This document shows, piece by piece, positions 7,363 to 51,019 of a DNA stretch of 64,000 nucleotides. The notes beneath the pieces are model-generated. The model saw nothing but the letters and a program-made list of their open reading frames with translations. It was not told the DNA's origin and did no database searches. Source of the DNA: Pyrinomonadaceae bacterium (GTDB taxonomy: Bacteria; Acidobacteriota; Blastocatellia; Pyrinomonadales; Pyrinomonadaceae); contig JAJQRF010000002.1 in assembly GCA_021228405.1 (NCBI GenBank), forward strand, positions 372,001 to 436,000, read 5' to 3'. Each line of letters opens with the position of its first letter. The first letter of the stretch is position 1. The translations under genes and the position numbers were made by a program.

Positions 7363-7460
7363 TCATCCACAGATGAACACGGATGGACGCAGATAAGAAT
7401 GATATTTCCCTTAAAAATCTTCTTTTCAATCAGCGTTTATCTGTGTTCATCTGTGGATAA
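7363..7460. repeat. dispersed palindromic repeat, copy 1 (CCACAGATGAACAC family)
   Basis: The left arm (about 7363-7396) carries CCACAGATGAACACGGAT. The right arm (7431-7460) carries its near reverse complement, ATCTGTGTTCATCTGTGG. A second copy with the same arms lies at 46761-46836. It fills the gap between the OsmC gene and the DUF3828 gene. Confidence 0.8.
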
Positions 7461-44940: not shown

Positions 44941-45756
44941 TCAATCCGCGCCGACACTCTCAACACGTAAAAAGTCTGCGGCGATAAAATTCTTTCTCCA
45001 CATTTGCCAGACATTTTCAAAATCTTTCGCGTCAAATCCAAATTTGTAGACAGTTTGATCTTTGGCTTCGGCAACTGATTCACCGTCGCGAAGTTTTTCG
45101 AGGAAAAAATATTGAGCCGGATTTATTTCCAACAAATTCAGCCGAAAATTGTAACGGCTGACGGTGCAGAAGCTCGTTTCTTCAAACGGCAATTCCGGCT
45201 CGTTTTTATTGACGACATCGAGATAATATCGGCAAACGGGGTATGTGTGGCGAAAGAGATGGAAAACGGGAATGAGTTTTAAGGATTCGTCGGTCGTGGA
45301 ATCATCCGCCAAAACGATCTTTTCGTCGGCGTGTTCGTCAAAAATTATCGACAGCGAATATTCAAAATTCGCCAGTTCGATCATAAAATCGATCCACGAT
45401 TCTTTTTCTGCGGAACCTGCGTCGGGACGAGTTTCCTGAAGATGCGCGGCGAAATTTTTGCCGAGGTCGTTTAATGTGTAACTGCCGGAAGGATATGCTT
45501 CCAGATATTGATCGGCAAACATTTGAAACAAATCTTCGCCGAGCGCGAAAGCGAGCGCGCTGAACTGGTTTTTCATACAATCGCGCAGACGCGCAATGTA
45601 GCTTTGCCGATAAATCCGCAAATGCCTTTCCGCGCTCAAACGGCTCGAATCGTTGACAAAATCCGCCGTGTTTGCCGAATCGAATTCGGGCGAAACTAAA
45701 ACGGATTGCATCCAATTTTGAATTTGTGCGAGATTTTTCTGAGTGTCTGTCGGCAT
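44941..45756 (-). CDS. DUF2063 protein (HvfC/BufC-like, MNIO partner)
   Basis: Encodes 271 residues. The first half has the DUF2063 pattern: LAQIQNWMQSVLVSP, then SAERHLRIYRQSYIARLRDCMKNQFSALAFALGEDLFQMFADQYLEAYPSGSYTLNDLG. In bufferin and methanobactin-like systems such proteins are the partner that delivers the precursor peptide to the DUF692 enzyme. It begins 5 bases after that gene here, so the pairing is clear. No signal peptide; cytoplasmic. It is the last gene of the four-gene locus. Confidence 0.85.
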   Translation of the reverse strand: MPTDTQKNLAQIQNWMQSVLVSPEFDSANTADFVNDSSRLSAERHLRIYRQSYIARLRDCMKNQFSALAFALGEDLFQMFADQYLEAYPSGSYTLNDLGKNFAAHLQETRPDAGSAEKESWIDFMIELANFEYSLSIIFDEHADEKIVLADDSTTDESLKLIPVFHLFRHTYPVCRYYLDVVNKNEPELPFEETSFCTVSRYNFRLNLLEINPAQYFFLEKLRDGESVAEAKDQTVYKFGFDAKDFENVWQMWRKNFIAADFLRVESVGAD

Positions 45757-45761
45757 AAAAT

Positions 45762-46709
45762 TCAGCGGTTCAGTTCATATGAAACGTCCGTTACCAGAAA
45801 ATCGAGCGGATTGGAAACGCCGTCGGATTCTGATTTTTTATGCGTTTCAAAATTTCGTATTTCAGGCAAATCATTCATAAAATCCTTTGCTTTTAGAAGT
45901 TCGGAATGGTAAACGTCGAAATCGGGAATGTTGCTGTCCCATTCAAGCAAAACCGCCGCGCCGTTCGTTAATTTCCAAGCGAGTGAAAAAAGTTGCCAGA
46001 CTTGCGGCGCGACAAAATTATCGTGCGTGTCGATGATATAATCGCCGCAATTCTGATGTCCGGCGAGGTGCATTTGAACGATCTTTTCGTGCGGCAAATT
46101 TTCGATATAATGCGCCGCGTCGAAGTCGTTATTGAACGATGAAACATAGACATTATTTACGTCGAGCAAAATTCCGCAACCCGTTTCTTCCGTCATCAAA
46201 CGCAAAAAATCCCATTCGTTGATCGTGGATTGTTTGAAGCGCAAATAAGTGCTCGGATTTTCAAAAACGAGCGGTCGCCCGAGAAAATCCTGCGCCTGAT
46301 CGATCTTTTTGCAGACGTGTTTGAGCGATTCTTCGGTGAGCGGCATCGGGAGCAGATCGTGCGAATTAAGACCATTTATGCCTGTCCAGCACAGATGATC
46401 GCTGATCCACAACGGATTTATTTCCGCCGCCAGATTTTTGAGTTTGGTTAAATATTCAAAATTCAGATCGTCTGCACTGCCGATGGAAAGCGAAACGCCG
46501 TGCATTACGACCTTGTAGCGTTCGGCGATCCGGCGGAGAACGTTTTTCGGTCTGCCGCCGGAATCCATAAAGTTTTCCGAGATGATCTCGAACCAATCGA
46601 CTTCGGGCTTATTTTCCAGAATGTCGTTAAAGTGTTTGCTTCTGAGTCCCAGACCAAAGCCCGGATTCGGAAAATCCTTAACGCATTCCGGCGAAGTTTT
46701 TTTGTTCAT
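45762..46709 (-). CDS. DUF692 multinuclear non-haem iron enzyme (MNIO, MbnB/BufB-like)
   Basis: Encodes 315 residues, the usual family length, a TIM-barrel. Metal-ligand motifs are present in order: VVMHGVSLSIGS, WISDHLCW, LVFENPSTY, ILLDVNNVYV, VQMHLAGHQ, IDTHDNF and LLEWDSNIP. Family members oxidise cysteines of ribosomal peptides (oxazolone/thioamide in methanobactin, thiooxazole in bufferins) using a multi-iron centre. Here the likely substrate is the cysteine-rich protein encoded just upstream. The gap before it (134 bases) holds a palindromic repeat. Confidence 0.92.
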   Translation of the reverse strand: MNKKTSPECVKDFPNPGFGLGLRSKHFNDILENKPEVDWFEIISENFMDSGGRPKNVLRRIAERYKVVMHGVSLSIGSADDLNFEYLTKLKNLAAEINPLWISDHLCWTGINGLNSHDLLPMPLTEESLKHVCKKIDQAQDFLGRPLVFENPSTYLRFKQSTINEWDFLRLMTEETGCGILLDVNNVYVSSFNNDFDAAHYIENLPHEKIVQMHLAGHQNCGDYIIDTHDNFVAPQVWQLFSLAWKLTNGAAVLLEWDSNIPDFDVYHSELLKAKDFMNDLPEIRNFETHKKSESDGVSNPLDFLVTDVSYELNR

Positions 46710-46760: not shown

Positions 46761-46836
46761 CCACAGATGAACACAGATTCGTTTTAATTGATAAAATCAA
46801 ATTCTTTTACCCGTGTCTATCCGTGTTCATCTGTGG
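46761..46836. repeat. dispersed palindromic repeat, copy 2 (CCACAGATGAACAC family)
   Basis: CCACAGATGAACACAGAT (46761-46778) faces ATCCGTGTTCATCTGTGG (46819-46836) across a 40-base spacer. The arms match copy 1 near 7363. It lies between the cysteine-rich protein gene and the DUF692 gene. Confidence 0.8.
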
Positions 46837-46843
46837 ACGGTTT

Positions 46844-47476
46844 TTATTTATTATTTGCTGTCCCGCACAAATGCGGTTCGCTTTTTTCGCACAGTTCTTT
46901 CGCGTCTTCGGCGGGATTGTTGTAGCCGAAACTGCAATATTTATTGCCGCTGTTGCCGCACGAATCGTAACTGCCTAAACTTTCGACGAGCCACGCTTGC
47001 GGGGGTCCGCATTTATACGGCGACGGTCCGAAATTGCGATTGGCTTTTTTCATCCGTTCTTCAAACAATTTACGCGCCAAAACCCAAACGCTCTTGCCCG
47101 TATTTTCGCCCTGCGTGCTGTAGCGTTCCGCCTGAATCGGAACGGCACAGCTTCCCTGCCACGCACAATCGTTGTTGCCGGGATTGCTCTGTTCTTCGCC
47201 GTCGCCGTATAAACCGCAACCGCCTTGATTACGGCAATTGTTCAGCGTGTGGCAGTTATGCTTCTGTGCGGTCGCGCATAAACCCATTCCGGCGCATTCG
47301 TTCGTGCCGTAGCGGTCGTGTCCTTTGCAGGCATTCAAACCCATACAGACGTGCAGTTCAATCGGCGTTGGAACGACCGTGCCGGACGAAGGCGGAGCCG
47401 GCGCAGGGGTCGAACAACCGCCGCCGCAACCGTTACTGCTTCCGAGATTTTCGATTTTCGTTGATTTTTTGCTCAT
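46844..47476 (-). CDS. 16-cysteine protein, candidate MNIO substrate (RiPP-like precursor)
   Basis: Encodes 210 residues, 16 of them cysteine. A short leader-like start (MSKKSTKIENLGSSNGCGGG) and a Pro/Ser-rich linker precede CMGLNACKGHDRYGTNECAGMGLCATA, HNCHTLNNCRNQGGCGLYG, then CAWQGSC. A helical stretch (SVWVLARKLFEERMKKA) and four further cysteines follow to the end. There is no Sec signal, unlike true bufferins. The C..G..AC.G spacing recalls bufferin cores. It lies 5 bases after the ferritin-like gene. It could also be a metal-storage protein or an enzyme subunit. Confidence 0.65.
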   Translation of the reverse strand: MSKKSTKIENLGSSNGCGGGCSTPAPAPPSSGTVVPTPIELHVCMGLNACKGHDRYGTNECAGMGLCATAQKHNCHTLNNCRNQGGCGLYGDGEEQSNPGNNDCAWQGSCAVPIQAERYSTQGENTGKSVWVLARKLFEERMKKANRNFGPSPYKCGPPQAWLVESLGSYDSCGNSGNKYCSFGYNNPAEDAKELCEKSEPHLCGTANNK

Positions 47477-47481
47477 ATATT

Positions 47482-48894
47482 TTATTTTCCTCTTGGGCTG
47501 TCGGTTAAGCGAACGTCCGGCAAATCCTGAAATCTTTGTGCAAGATAGGAAATTGTCGGATATAAAGCGACGGCTTCGTTGTAGAGTTCGATTAGTTGAG
47601 ATTTGGGACTCGACATCAAACCGAACGGATAATTTTCAAAGGTCGCAGTCGCCTGAAACGTCTGCCCGTTTTCGGTGTAAGTCAAACCCTGAATGTCGCC
47701 GCACAGCGAATTCAGAATGAAGATCATCGTTTTGTGAATGCCGAACATAAAAATCTCATACTGCGTATTTTCGTCCGCCTGATAACAGCCTTCCGTCATA
47801 ATGAAAACGTAGGTATAAACTGCATTGAGCAGATTTGAAACGGCTTGGATCGTGCCTTCGGGATATTTGTCGGCTTTCGGATATTTGGCGGTCGTCGGAT
47901 TCGTCGGAACGTTCAAAACGAAATAATTGCTGATGTTAATATCCTGCAAACCGTATTGGGCGAATTTCTCGTTCAGTTCGTTGTATTCGCAGTAAAGCAG
48001 TGCAAACTTTTCAAAATGCGACAGTTCTTTTTTGTCCTTGTCGTCGTAATCCTTATCGTTTAGCGGTTTGCAATCGACCGAACCGTTCGGATTCAAACCC
48101 GGTGCGCCAGTGTTTCCTTCGCCCTGTTCGACGATCTGCGAAATGGCTTTCTTCGCCGATTTCAGATCGACGACGTGCACGAGATCGCCCGAATCATCCG
48201 CGTCCATATACTGCGCTTTATGATTGATGTCGTAGTAAACCGTGTCGATGTTGTTGTTTGCATAATAACGCCGTCCGGGAACGAGTTGCGGTCGGTCGGT
48301 CGAATATCTCAGTTTTTTGTCGTATTTTTCCAGACATTTTTCGATCATATCGTAAAACTGACCGATGGTTTTATACGGAATCGCTTTGAGGAGCGGCGTT
48401 GTTTCGGGCAGCGGGTCGGGACTTTCGATCTTCAGGAAAGTCATCAACTGATCGAGCGAAAACGGCGCGAGATTGATGTCGAATTCGGGTTCGTGACCGG
48501 GCAGACACGCGGGATAAACCGAAGGCGATCTTCCCGTCAGATGCGGTTGACCGATCAGAGCCTGTTTCAGATTGGATGAAAGCGACATATGGAGCATTTC
48601 TTCCATCACGACGCTCATAATCGTCGCGCCGATCTTGTTGGCGTAAACCATAATTTCCGCCGAAAGTCTTAACGCGACCTTGTTTGCCTCGGGCGTTTCC
48701 ATTCCTTTGCGCGTCAGTTCCTGCGCGAGTGCGCCGCTAATCGCATCCTGGTCGGGAACGCGGTTGACCGAGTAGTATGTAAAAAGGTAAACGGGTATCG
48801 TGGCAATTTCGATTTCGATTGCCTGTTGAATGGCTTCTCCGAGATTTTTCGGAGTAACCTCCGCTTTACCGGAAAAAAACGGGGTTTTTTGCAT
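47482..48894 (-). CDS. ferritin-like protein of the VioB / iminophenyl-pyruvate dimer synthase type
   Basis: Encodes 470 residues. The N-terminal half has AIQQAIEIEIATIPVYLFTYYSV and, later, MEEMLHMSLSSNLKQALIG, the E...ExxH-type metal-binding helices of ferritin-like domains; the IEIATIPVYL phrase is typical of the family around VioB/RebD-type dimer synthases. The rest is unassigned with YEIFMFGIHKTMIFILN near the end. It is the first gene of a four-gene minus-strand locus with the cysteine-rich protein and the DUF692/DUF2063 pair. It may oxidise the same substrate or supply another step. Confidence 0.75.
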   Translation of the reverse strand: MQKTPFFSGKAEVTPKNLGEAIQQAIEIEIATIPVYLFTYYSVNRVPDQDAISGALAQELTRKGMETPEANKVALRLSAEIMVYANKIGATIMSVVMEEMLHMSLSSNLKQALIGQPHLTGRSPSVYPACLPGHEPEFDINLAPFSLDQLMTFLKIESPDPLPETTPLLKAIPYKTIGQFYDMIEKCLEKYDKKLRYSTDRPQLVPGRRYYANNNIDTVYYDINHKAQYMDADDSGDLVHVVDLKSAKKAISQIVEQGEGNTGAPGLNPNGSVDCKPLNDKDYDDKDKKELSHFEKFALLYCEYNELNEKFAQYGLQDINISNYFVLNVPTNPTTAKYPKADKYPEGTIQAVSNLLNAVYTYVFIMTEGCYQADENTQYEIFMFGIHKTMIFILNSLCGDIQGLTYTENGQTFQATATFENYPFGLMSSPKSQLIELYNEAVALYPTISYLAQRFQDLPDVRLTDSPRGK

Positions 48895-49363: not shown

Positions 49364-51019
49364 ATGCCCCTGAATCCTTCCGAAAATAAACCTTTCGGAG
49401 ATATTGCCCTCTGTCTTTCGGGCGGCGGGTACCGTGCGGCGACATTTGCGCTCGGCACGCTTTCGATGCTCGACGAACTGAATCTGCTCAAAGACGTAAA
49501 GCTTTTATCGACCGTTTCGGGCGGAACCTTTACGGGTTTGACCTATGCGACCTGGCAGAGCGAAGGCAAAACTTTTGCCGAATTTTACAAAGATTTCAGC
49601 AGTTATCTGAAAACGACGAACGCCATCGACAAAGCGTTGGACGAGCTTTACACAACGCCTTCGCCTTCGGGTTCGACCGATCTGAGCCTGATCCGTTCGG
49701 CGGCAAAATCTTACGCGGATTGTCTGGTCGGGAAACGAACCTTTAAACAGCTTCTCGAAGTTGCCGCCAAAGGCGAACGTTTTCGTGAACTCATTTTCAA
49801 CGCGACCGAATTTCGCGAAGGTAATTCGTTTCGCTTTCGCGCCAGTTTTATTAAAACGGCTTTTATCGGCAATCAAAATTTCGCGGTTCCGAAAGAGGTC
49901 GCCGAAGAAGTTTACCTTGCCGATATTATCGCGGCTTCGTCGTGTTTTCCGGGCGCGTTCGAGCCGATTCGGTTTCCCGACGATTTCTACTGGAAAAGCC
50001 CGCTTGCCGCGATTCGCGAAAAATTAATCGCAGATGTCGAAAATCCCATCACGCACAAACGCTATCAGAACGGCTTCAAGGTTGATAAAAACTGTGTTCC
50101 GCTGCCGCTGATGGACGGCGGCGTTTACGATAATCAAGGCATTTCGAGCGCGGTGATGGCAGATCAGGACAATTCTTTCGGATTGTTTCTGGTGACGGAT
50201 ACGAGTCCGCGTGAAGACGATATTTTGAATCTGCCCGATGCGAGTCCGCGCCGCGGCTGGGTTTCGCTCGAAACGATGTTTTGGCTTGCCGTCGGGCTTT
50301 TCGTTGTCTGTCTGCTTGCGATCGGCATTACGGGCTATTCGTTTTTCAAAACCGGCGAACCGCATCGCTTTGCCCACTGGCAGATCGTTGTCGGATACAT
50401 TATCGCAATTTCCCCGTCGTTTCTGCTGATCGGCGTGCTGGCGTGGGTTTATTCGCAATTTCGCCAAATCGAAACACTGAAAATTTCGGGCGCAGAGTTC
50501 AAACTCTGGCATTATTTCAAGAAACTGGCTTTGCCCGATGCAATCGAGCTCATCAAAGCGCGCGTGAATTCGGTATTGGCGATGACCTCGAACGTTTTTA
50601 TGAAACGCATCCGCCAATTGCAGTTCAATAACCTGATGAACGCACAGTCGAAAAACGAACTCGTCGCATTTAATCTTGTCTATTCGCTCAATCCGACAGT
50701 CAGCCGCGATTGGCTCTGGAAGCTCGATCCCGATCTGGAACCGACTCCTGAAATGAGAAAAACTTCCGCGAAAGCCGAACTCATTCCGACCGCGTTGTGG
50801 ATGAACGAGGGGCAATTTGAGATTTTGATCGACTGTGGGCGCGCTACCACCTGCTTTTCACTGCTGAAATATCTCTGGCAAAAATGGCTGGCAGAGGAAA
50901 ATGCGGCGCAGAAACAATCGCCGCCCGTCGAAGTCCCGAAACCGAACACGCCCGCTTCACCGTATTTCGAGATTTACACCCAACTGAAAGCAAAATGGCT
51001 CGAGCTCAAGCAAAAATGA
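49364..51019 (+). CDS. patatin-like phospholipase with two central membrane segments
   Basis: Encodes 551 residues with AAGGAG upstream of the ATG. The patatin hydrolase fold is shown by LCLSGGGYRAATFALG (glycine-rich oxyanion loop), the nucleophile in LSTVSGGTFTG, and the catalytic aspartate in LMDGGVYDNQG. Between about residues 306 and 375 two hydrophobic segments (MFWLAVGLFVVCLLAIGITGYSFF and IVVGYIIAISPSFLLIGVLAWVY) divide the protein; the remainder is cytosolic-type. It probably hydrolyses acyl lipids at the inner membrane. Whether it serves lipid turnover or defence cannot be told from context. Confidence 0.85.
   Translation: MPLNPSENKPFGDIALCLSGGGYRAATFALGTLSMLDELNLLKDVKLLSTVSGGTFTGLTYATWQSEGKTFAEFYKDFSSYLKTTNAIDKALDELYTTPSPSGSTDLSLIRSAAKSYADCLVGKRTFKQLLEVAAKGERFRELIFNATEFREGNSFRFRASFIKTAFIGNQNFAVPKEVAEEVYLADIIAASSCFPGAFEPIRFPDDFYWKSPLAAIREKLIADVENPITHKRYQNGFKVDKNCVPLPLMDGGVYDNQGISSAVMADQDNSFGLFLVTDTSPREDDILNLPDASPRRGWVSLETMFWLAVGLFVVCLLAIGITGYSFFKTGEPHRFAHWQIVVGYIIAISPSFLLIGVLAWVYSQFRQIETLKISGAEFKLWHYFKKLALPDAIELIKARVNSVLAMTSNVFMKRIRQLQFNNLMNAQSKNELVAFNLVYSLNPTVSRDWLWKLDPDLEPTPEMRKTSAKAELIPTALWMNEGQFEILIDCGRATTCFSLLKYLWQKWLAEENAAQKQSPPVEVPKPNTPASPYFEIYTQLKAKWLELKQK

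Follow-up and report, generated by a model that had tools for sequence, protein, structure and literature searches.

What does an MNIO (DUF692) enzyme do beside a cysteine-rich protein that carries no export signal? These enzymes are known to make peptide chelators that are periplasmic or secreted, and a sequence-only reading of the window (the whole 64,000-nucleotide stretch of Pyrinomonadaceae DNA analysed here) had pointed to a gene whose product might be a cytoplasmic metal-storing protein or an enzyme partner made to be modified in place. We confirmed the open reading frame at 46844-47476 (-), which has an ATG start and encodes 210 aa with 16 Cys (positions 17, 21, 44, 50, 61, 67, 75, 81, 87, 104, 110, 156, 173, 181, 196 and 204). 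The product, a putative MNIO substrate with a tandem bufferin-like core, is called SUB below. Given the Cys frequency in the long ORFs of the window (1.1%), at least 16 Cys in 210 residues would occur with P of about 2e-9; this value, together with the conservation of Cys among homologues, ruled out a chance origin. Between SUB and its counterpart at locus L001, dN/dS was 0.08, indicating purifying selection.

Five C-x5-C pairs (44/50, 61/67, 75/81, 81/87 and 104/110) agree with the spacing described earlier, whereas the supposed C-G-G-C-like element, CGGGC at the N-terminus (17-21), has C-x3-C spacing. A Sec-type hydrophobic segment was indeed absent from residues 1-45 (best 12-mer hydropathy 1.22, versus 1.9-2.2 in exported relatives), and most SUB homologues likewise lack a signal peptide. 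The helical region also reappeared, with AlphaFold predicting helices at residues 130-144, 160-167 and 188-203. The model of SUB alone had a mean pLDDT of 59 (71-84 over residues 111-170); neither this model nor the SUB part of a fusion model gave a usable fold for the Cys core, and SUB had no sequence match among solved structures.

A four-gene cassette

In the window, SUB is the second gene of an operon. It is preceded by the gene of a ferritin-like protein, FERR (47482..48894 (-), 470 aa; PF12902, E=2e-40), with the SUB start codon 5 nt past the FERR stop codon, and followed by the MNIO maturase gene (45762..46709 (-), 315 aa; PF05114, E=4e-106) and a gene for a DUF2063/HvfC-type MNIO partner (44941..45756 (-), 271 aa; PF09836, 59.8 bits, cut-off 27.2). 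The MNIO exceeds the cut-off of the MNIO_BufB model NF050167 (357.9 bits, cut-off 310).

Employing SUB alone as the query, in a search blind to neighbouring genes, we screened 84,980 species genomes and found 57 loci in Bacteroidota, Pseudomonadota, Actinomycetota and Acidobacteriota. All four cassette genes, DUF692 included, were present at 56 of the 57, so the association with DUF692 assumed at the outset stands. The remaining locus, L054, is a decayed remnant, and its interpretation as a SUB-MNIO fusion was rejected for that reason. The gene order is FERR-SUB-MNIO-DUF2063, or SUB-MNIO-DUF2063-FERR in actinomycetes. Where FERR and SUB are separate genes, the gap between them is mostly 4-60 nt, and at two loci they overlap. 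Across most loci, no gene beyond these four recurs. Strong SUB matches are sparse (8/395 Bacteroidia, 4/296 Actinomycetes and 2/297 Acidobacteriota genomes), and no homologue was found on plasmids; three divergent fused forms were found only via FERR. In the reverse test, with 390 Bacteroidia genomes, all six strong FERR matches adjoined SUB; for PF12902 proteins lacking SUB, the 1.5 kb inspected contained no MNIO. Because of the neighbour-blind SUB search and the reverse FERR test, we conclude that MNIO tracks SUB and that this FERR subfamily also tracks SUB.

Other neighbours were rejected as cassette members. They include a patatin gene at 49364-51019, unmatched in any homologous locus, and recurrent neighbours such as a transporter, Nramp-like by eye, which in our sample occurs only in Mucilaginibacter and close neighbours of it and was put down to synteny. 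A separate protein family adjoins the cassette at four loci in two phyla, namely in Roseivirga, a Flavobacteriaceae MAG and two Saccharothrix (L049, L052, L025 and L034); one Saccharothrix member, L049:4395-5435(-), passes the NCBI heme-binding protein model NF040572. Its members could act together with FERR.

Between SUB and MNIO in the window lies an inserted copy of a dispersed palindromic repeat (46761-46836, no strand assigned), found again at 7367-7456, with arms CCACAGATGAACAC[A/G]GAT. There are about 79 half-sites in the window genome (reversed control, 0), and the copy at 46761-46836 would form a strong RNA hairpin (z -6.5). The repeat is probably outside the system, and it may lower the expression of MNIO relative to SUB; in L001, the SUB-MNIO gap is only 12 nt.

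A duplicated bufferin-like core

Alignment of 59 SUB sequences showed eight core Cys (44, 50, 67, 75, 81, 87, 104 and 110) to be essentially invariant, each kept in at least 58, as an earlier proposal to examine their conservation had asked. Cys61 is kept in 50 of the 59; Cys173, 181 and 196 are common among homologues, and Cys21, 156 and 204 are not conserved. Residues 42-114 form an internal duplication of HxCx3NxC..NxCx3GxC(A): aligned half against half with hhalign, they gave P 97.6% and a score of 49.3, compared with at most 18.7 in 100 column shuffles. Module 1 (residues 42-69, 47270..47353 (-)), delimited by the internal repeat, reads H42xC44x3N48xC50..NxC61x3GxC67AT; module 2 (residues 73-114, 47135..47260 (-)), delimited by the repeat and by alignment with exported tandem proteins, reads H73xC75x3N79xC81..C87..NxC104x3GxC110AVPI. 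Each module thus has a C-x5-C pair at either end, and Cys87 is additional.

C-terminal of the core, there is a segment predicted to be helical (residues 126-147, 47036..47101 (-)), around SVWxLARKLFEERM in the window and GKSVWxLARKLFExRM in consensus, in which W131, A134 and R135 are invariant. The segment is present in the FERR-SUB fusions described below and absent from exported bufferins, and we infer that it is a candidate FERR-docking element. The N-terminus is variable. Most homologues begin with NGCGG or SLCGG followed by a Pro/Ser-rich linker, the shortest start right at the core, and in the fusions FERR occupies this place; a conserved leader of the RiPP type, which had been suggested for examination, was not found among the homologues. 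In two Kordia loci (L028 and L030) and one of Aquimarina (L023), the linker is expanded into repeated SNGCGSSG units, giving 20-22 Cys. Nor is SUB unusually large for an MNIO substrate, as had been supposed: the published examples include MNIO precursors with 122-293 aa and Buf1 proteins as long as 835 aa (PMC12452194), and the conserved target in SUB is about 75 aa.

The sequence-only reading had also set SUB apart from bufferins, and here the profile comparisons gave a different answer. With hhalign, the SUB core matched BufA2 with P 96.4% and a score of 52.7 (reversed, 25.7; at most 19.8 in 40 column shuffles), and it matched exported tandem bufferin-like proteins with P 99.1%, E 6e-19 and a score of 96 (shuffled maximum 19.5; reversed 22.8). 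NF050166 (BufA2) was matched at E<=0.01 by 42 of 50 SUB proteins; the window SUB scored 15.6 bits and did not reach the curated cut-off of 60 bits. On these profiles, the SUB core is best described as a tandem type-2 bufferin (BufA2-like) module, closest to the exported tandem proteins of Acidobacteriota. The latter (L105-L109 and L111-L113) have up to 12 core Cys, the pair that we tested did not reach the BufA2 cut-off, and by sequence they would constitute an undescribed or poorly captured bufferin subfamily.

A tree of 106 MNIOs (IQ-TREE, midpoint rooting) was consistent with this relationship. Cassette MNIOs formed one clade (99/90), sister to those of the exported tandem proteins, and the joint clade (98/92) sat within the Buf2-type MNIOs; four rows labelled B2 in the cassette clade are SUB loci fetched again. 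The most economical scenario starts from an exported type-2 bufferin that underwent duplication and loss of the signal peptide, acquired the C-terminal segment and joined FERR. Since Bacteroidota sequences surround those of the window and L001, horizontal transfer is the probable route by which the cassette came into this Pyrinomonadaceae lineage.

The window genome has a second MNIO gene (L102, G000:C11:17085-17867), and upstream of it is encoded a membrane protein matching TIGR04222 (80.9 bits against a cut-off of 43); this association is published and uncharacterised. In the related genome G020, a small peptide (L101:1119-1298) with a leader-like part and a CGGCSGCALPGCSTC tail precedes a second MNIO. 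The peptide weakly matches an ammosamide/lymphostin leader and lies near what are, by eye, an M50-like HEFAH motif and an asparagine-synthetase-like ORF; L101 is likely a RiPP cluster.

The ferritin-like partner and the role of SUB

FERR clearly belongs to PF12902 (139 bits, cut-off 22.3). E29, E99xxH102, E157, E259 and H293 are invariant in 43 homologues, and E290 is kept in 41; this E/ExxH/E/(E)xxH set suggests a di-metal site, as in a diiron-type ferritin-like protein. PF12902 also occurs in VioB/RebD-type biosynthetic enzymes, which follow amino-acid oxidases, and we know of no general biochemical function of PF12902 proteins to borrow. Against TIGR04492 (VioB / RebD dimer synthase), FERR scored 20.5 bits, far from the cut-off of 1250. 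Neighbours of lodA in fungi also include members of the family (PMC4417212).

At eight loci, a single polypeptide comprises both FERR and SUB, always with SUB at the C-terminus. The hosts are the gammaproteobacterium Pleionea (L046), a member of the same family as the window genome (L059/L157), another of the Acidobacteriota (L104/L158) and Bacteroidia (L121/L160, L122/L159, L154, L155 and L156). MNIO and DUF2063 genes are adjacent at all eight. The five fusions included in the MNIO tree fall in two separate places; L154-L156, not included in the tree, are a third, divergent fusion type. The joint FERR/SUB alignment was built by reading in frame through adjacent genes; mixing FERR-only and SUB-only rows misaligned FERR into SUB. 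In the model of the L046 fusion, the ferritin-like part resembled 3hl1 (CC_0557 of Caulobacter, Z 25) and, at Z of about 11, bacterioferritin and Dps. Foldseek and VIA matches covered the ferritin-like part only, with none over the SUB part, and the low pLDDT of the Cys cores in AlphaFold left the FERR-SUB interface and a placement of Cys near the di-metal site without model support. The fusion ORF L158:4452-7694(-) encodes 1,081 aa, with the ferritin-like domain from near residue 423; no Pfam domain was matched in its first 420 residues, which may represent a further domain or a wrong start.

No other evidence speaks as strongly as these fusions for SUB and FERR acting as one unit. They fit well with the earlier idea of an enzyme partner that undergoes modification in place; the identity of the partner, FERR, had been missed. 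We consider it probable, at roughly 60%, that MNIO and the DUF2063 protein modify core Cys of SUB in the cytoplasm and that the module serves as a metal-binding subunit or domain of FERR. The modification is proposed on the model of bufferins, in which thiooxazoles formed from Cys chelate Cu(I)/Cu(II) (PMC12452194), and of bulbicupramide (PMC12538549).

In this proposal, a duplicated type-2 bufferin without a signal peptide would have become an obligate FERR subunit, or in eight loci its fused C-terminal domain. The DUF2063 protein and MNIO would bind the unfolded module in the cytoplasm and some core Cys would be converted to thiooxazole-type ligands; the modified module would then fold onto FERR and bind Cu(I) or another soft metal beside the di-metal site. 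The complex would be a cytoplasmic mixed-metal oxidase or metal-oxidising centre, with the modified peptide as a built-in metal cofactor rather than a secreted chelator. The role as a mixed-metal oxidase is a step of lower confidence; we regard it as most likely, ahead of storage, given the enzyme-like metal ligands retained in FERR and the absence of conserved metal transporters and regulators from the cassette. The most specific version, in which the module gives thiooxazole/thiolate Cu ligands to a ferritin-like di-metal enzyme, in trans or fused, to make a mixed Fe-Cu oxidase, is tentative, and we put the odds somewhat against it. If true, it would provide a peptide-derived cofactor in a mixed Fe-Cu oxidase and, to our knowledge, the first MNIO-installed catalytic cofactor of an enzyme.

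FERR might instead be a second tailoring enzyme, so that both MNIO and FERR would act on SUB as a precursor; the product would be modified SUB, perhaps in released form. Borosins, in which an enzyme is fused to its own precursor substrate, offer a precedent; FERR is linked to SUB as tightly as MNIO is, and the VioB/RebD-type enzymes that share PF12902 are biosynthetic, weak as the FERR-VioB match is. However, no conserved protease or exporter lies beside the cassette, SUB is without a conserved leader, and its rigid 75-aa core with the invariant W131/A134/R135 is unlike the variable core of a RiPP. We regard this arrangement as unlikely.

Somewhat less likely again is a stand-alone cytoplasmic copper store or buffer, with FERR as a separate iron/oxygen-detoxifying protein of the same stress response. 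Bufferins do chelate excess Cu (PMC12452194), an intracellular role has been suggested for the modified MmrA peptide (PMC12538549), and Kordia SUB has up to 22 Cys and repeated SNGCG units. Repeated physical fusion to FERR and strict co-occurrence nevertheless favour one complex, and the neighbourhoods in different phyla share no copper exporter or regulator. That SUB is a disulfide- or metal-stabilised structural subunit of FERR while MNIO acts elsewhere is very improbable: bufferin-like Cys could bind metal unmodified, but MNIO tracks SUB and not FERR, it belongs to the bufferin maturase family with a clade that follows the SUB lineage, and no further gene of the cassette is shared by most loci.

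An MNIO-modified SUB module that works as part of FERR thus remains the preferred reading. It suggests that a metal site within a cytoplasmic protein is assembled with the help of an iron enzyme that modifies peptides: the MNIO machinery would here serve a protein in permanent association with a ferritin-like one, a partnership to which the natural fusions testify. PF12902 proteins would gain a testable biochemical context and, if the reading is true, MNIO modification would reach beyond peptide natural products to cofactors of enzymes or of metal storage.

Comparison with known systems

Other PF12902 proteins (the C-terminal part of VioB, CC_0557/3hl1 and the fungal lodA neighbours) share the ferritin-like domain with FERR; unlike FERR, those found here without SUB have no bufferin domain and no MNIO gene nearby. 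In the MNIO literature that we found, there was no relevant mention of ferritin-like proteins, and the word ferritin is absent from the main text of PMC12452194.

Among uncharacterised MNIO precursors, adjamnio-I is described as a group of 100 sequences of 122-293 aa with 8-21 Cys and no signal peptide, listed with a PME-type 2 partner that has no Pfam DUF2063 signature (PMC12452194). Unfused SUB homologues (155-277 aa, 8-22 Cys) resemble it in length, Cys count, the lack of a signal peptide and the position of the gene before MNIO. They differ in that all 13 of the partners that we scanned score above the DUF2063 cut-off (PME-type 1), and the main text of that paper gives adjamnio-I no ferritin link. 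Compared by published description only, the SUB family may overlap adjamnio-I. According to the same paper, DUF2063-type partners accompany signal-peptide precursors (PMC12452194); the SUB family is a counterexample to this correlation.

Bufferin-2 (BufA2, Buf_6/12Cys, NF050166) shares with SUB the motif HxCxGxNxC(K)G..C(A/K)T..C..NxC, a BufB-family MNIO, a DUF2063-type partner and the order precursor-MNIO-partner, and 12-Cys duplicated forms of it exist, just as the SUB core is duplicated. SUB is distinguished by its missing signal peptide, the extra Cys87, the C-terminal helical segment, a score below the family cut-off and an obligate ferritin-like partner. The exported tandem proteins (L105-L109 and L111-L113) have the same duplicated core in register with that of SUB, together with MNIO and a DUF2063-type partner, and L108/L109 carry a SUB-like NGCGxxGGC linker N-terminal of the core, after the signal peptide; in contrast to SUB, they have that signal peptide, no FERR was found beside them, and they lack the C-terminal W-AR helix.

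Bufferin modules within larger proteins are known from Buf1-cytochrome c-FGE-sulfatase, MerC-Buf1, MerC-Buf2 and Buf_EGKC-EF-hand fusions (PMC12452194), and FERR-SUB is comparable in this respect. Those fusions are few and are exported or membrane proteins, whereas SUB is fused to a cytoplasmic ferritin-like protein. The SUB family is bufferin-like by origin, but is not BufA2 by cut-off or by localisation.
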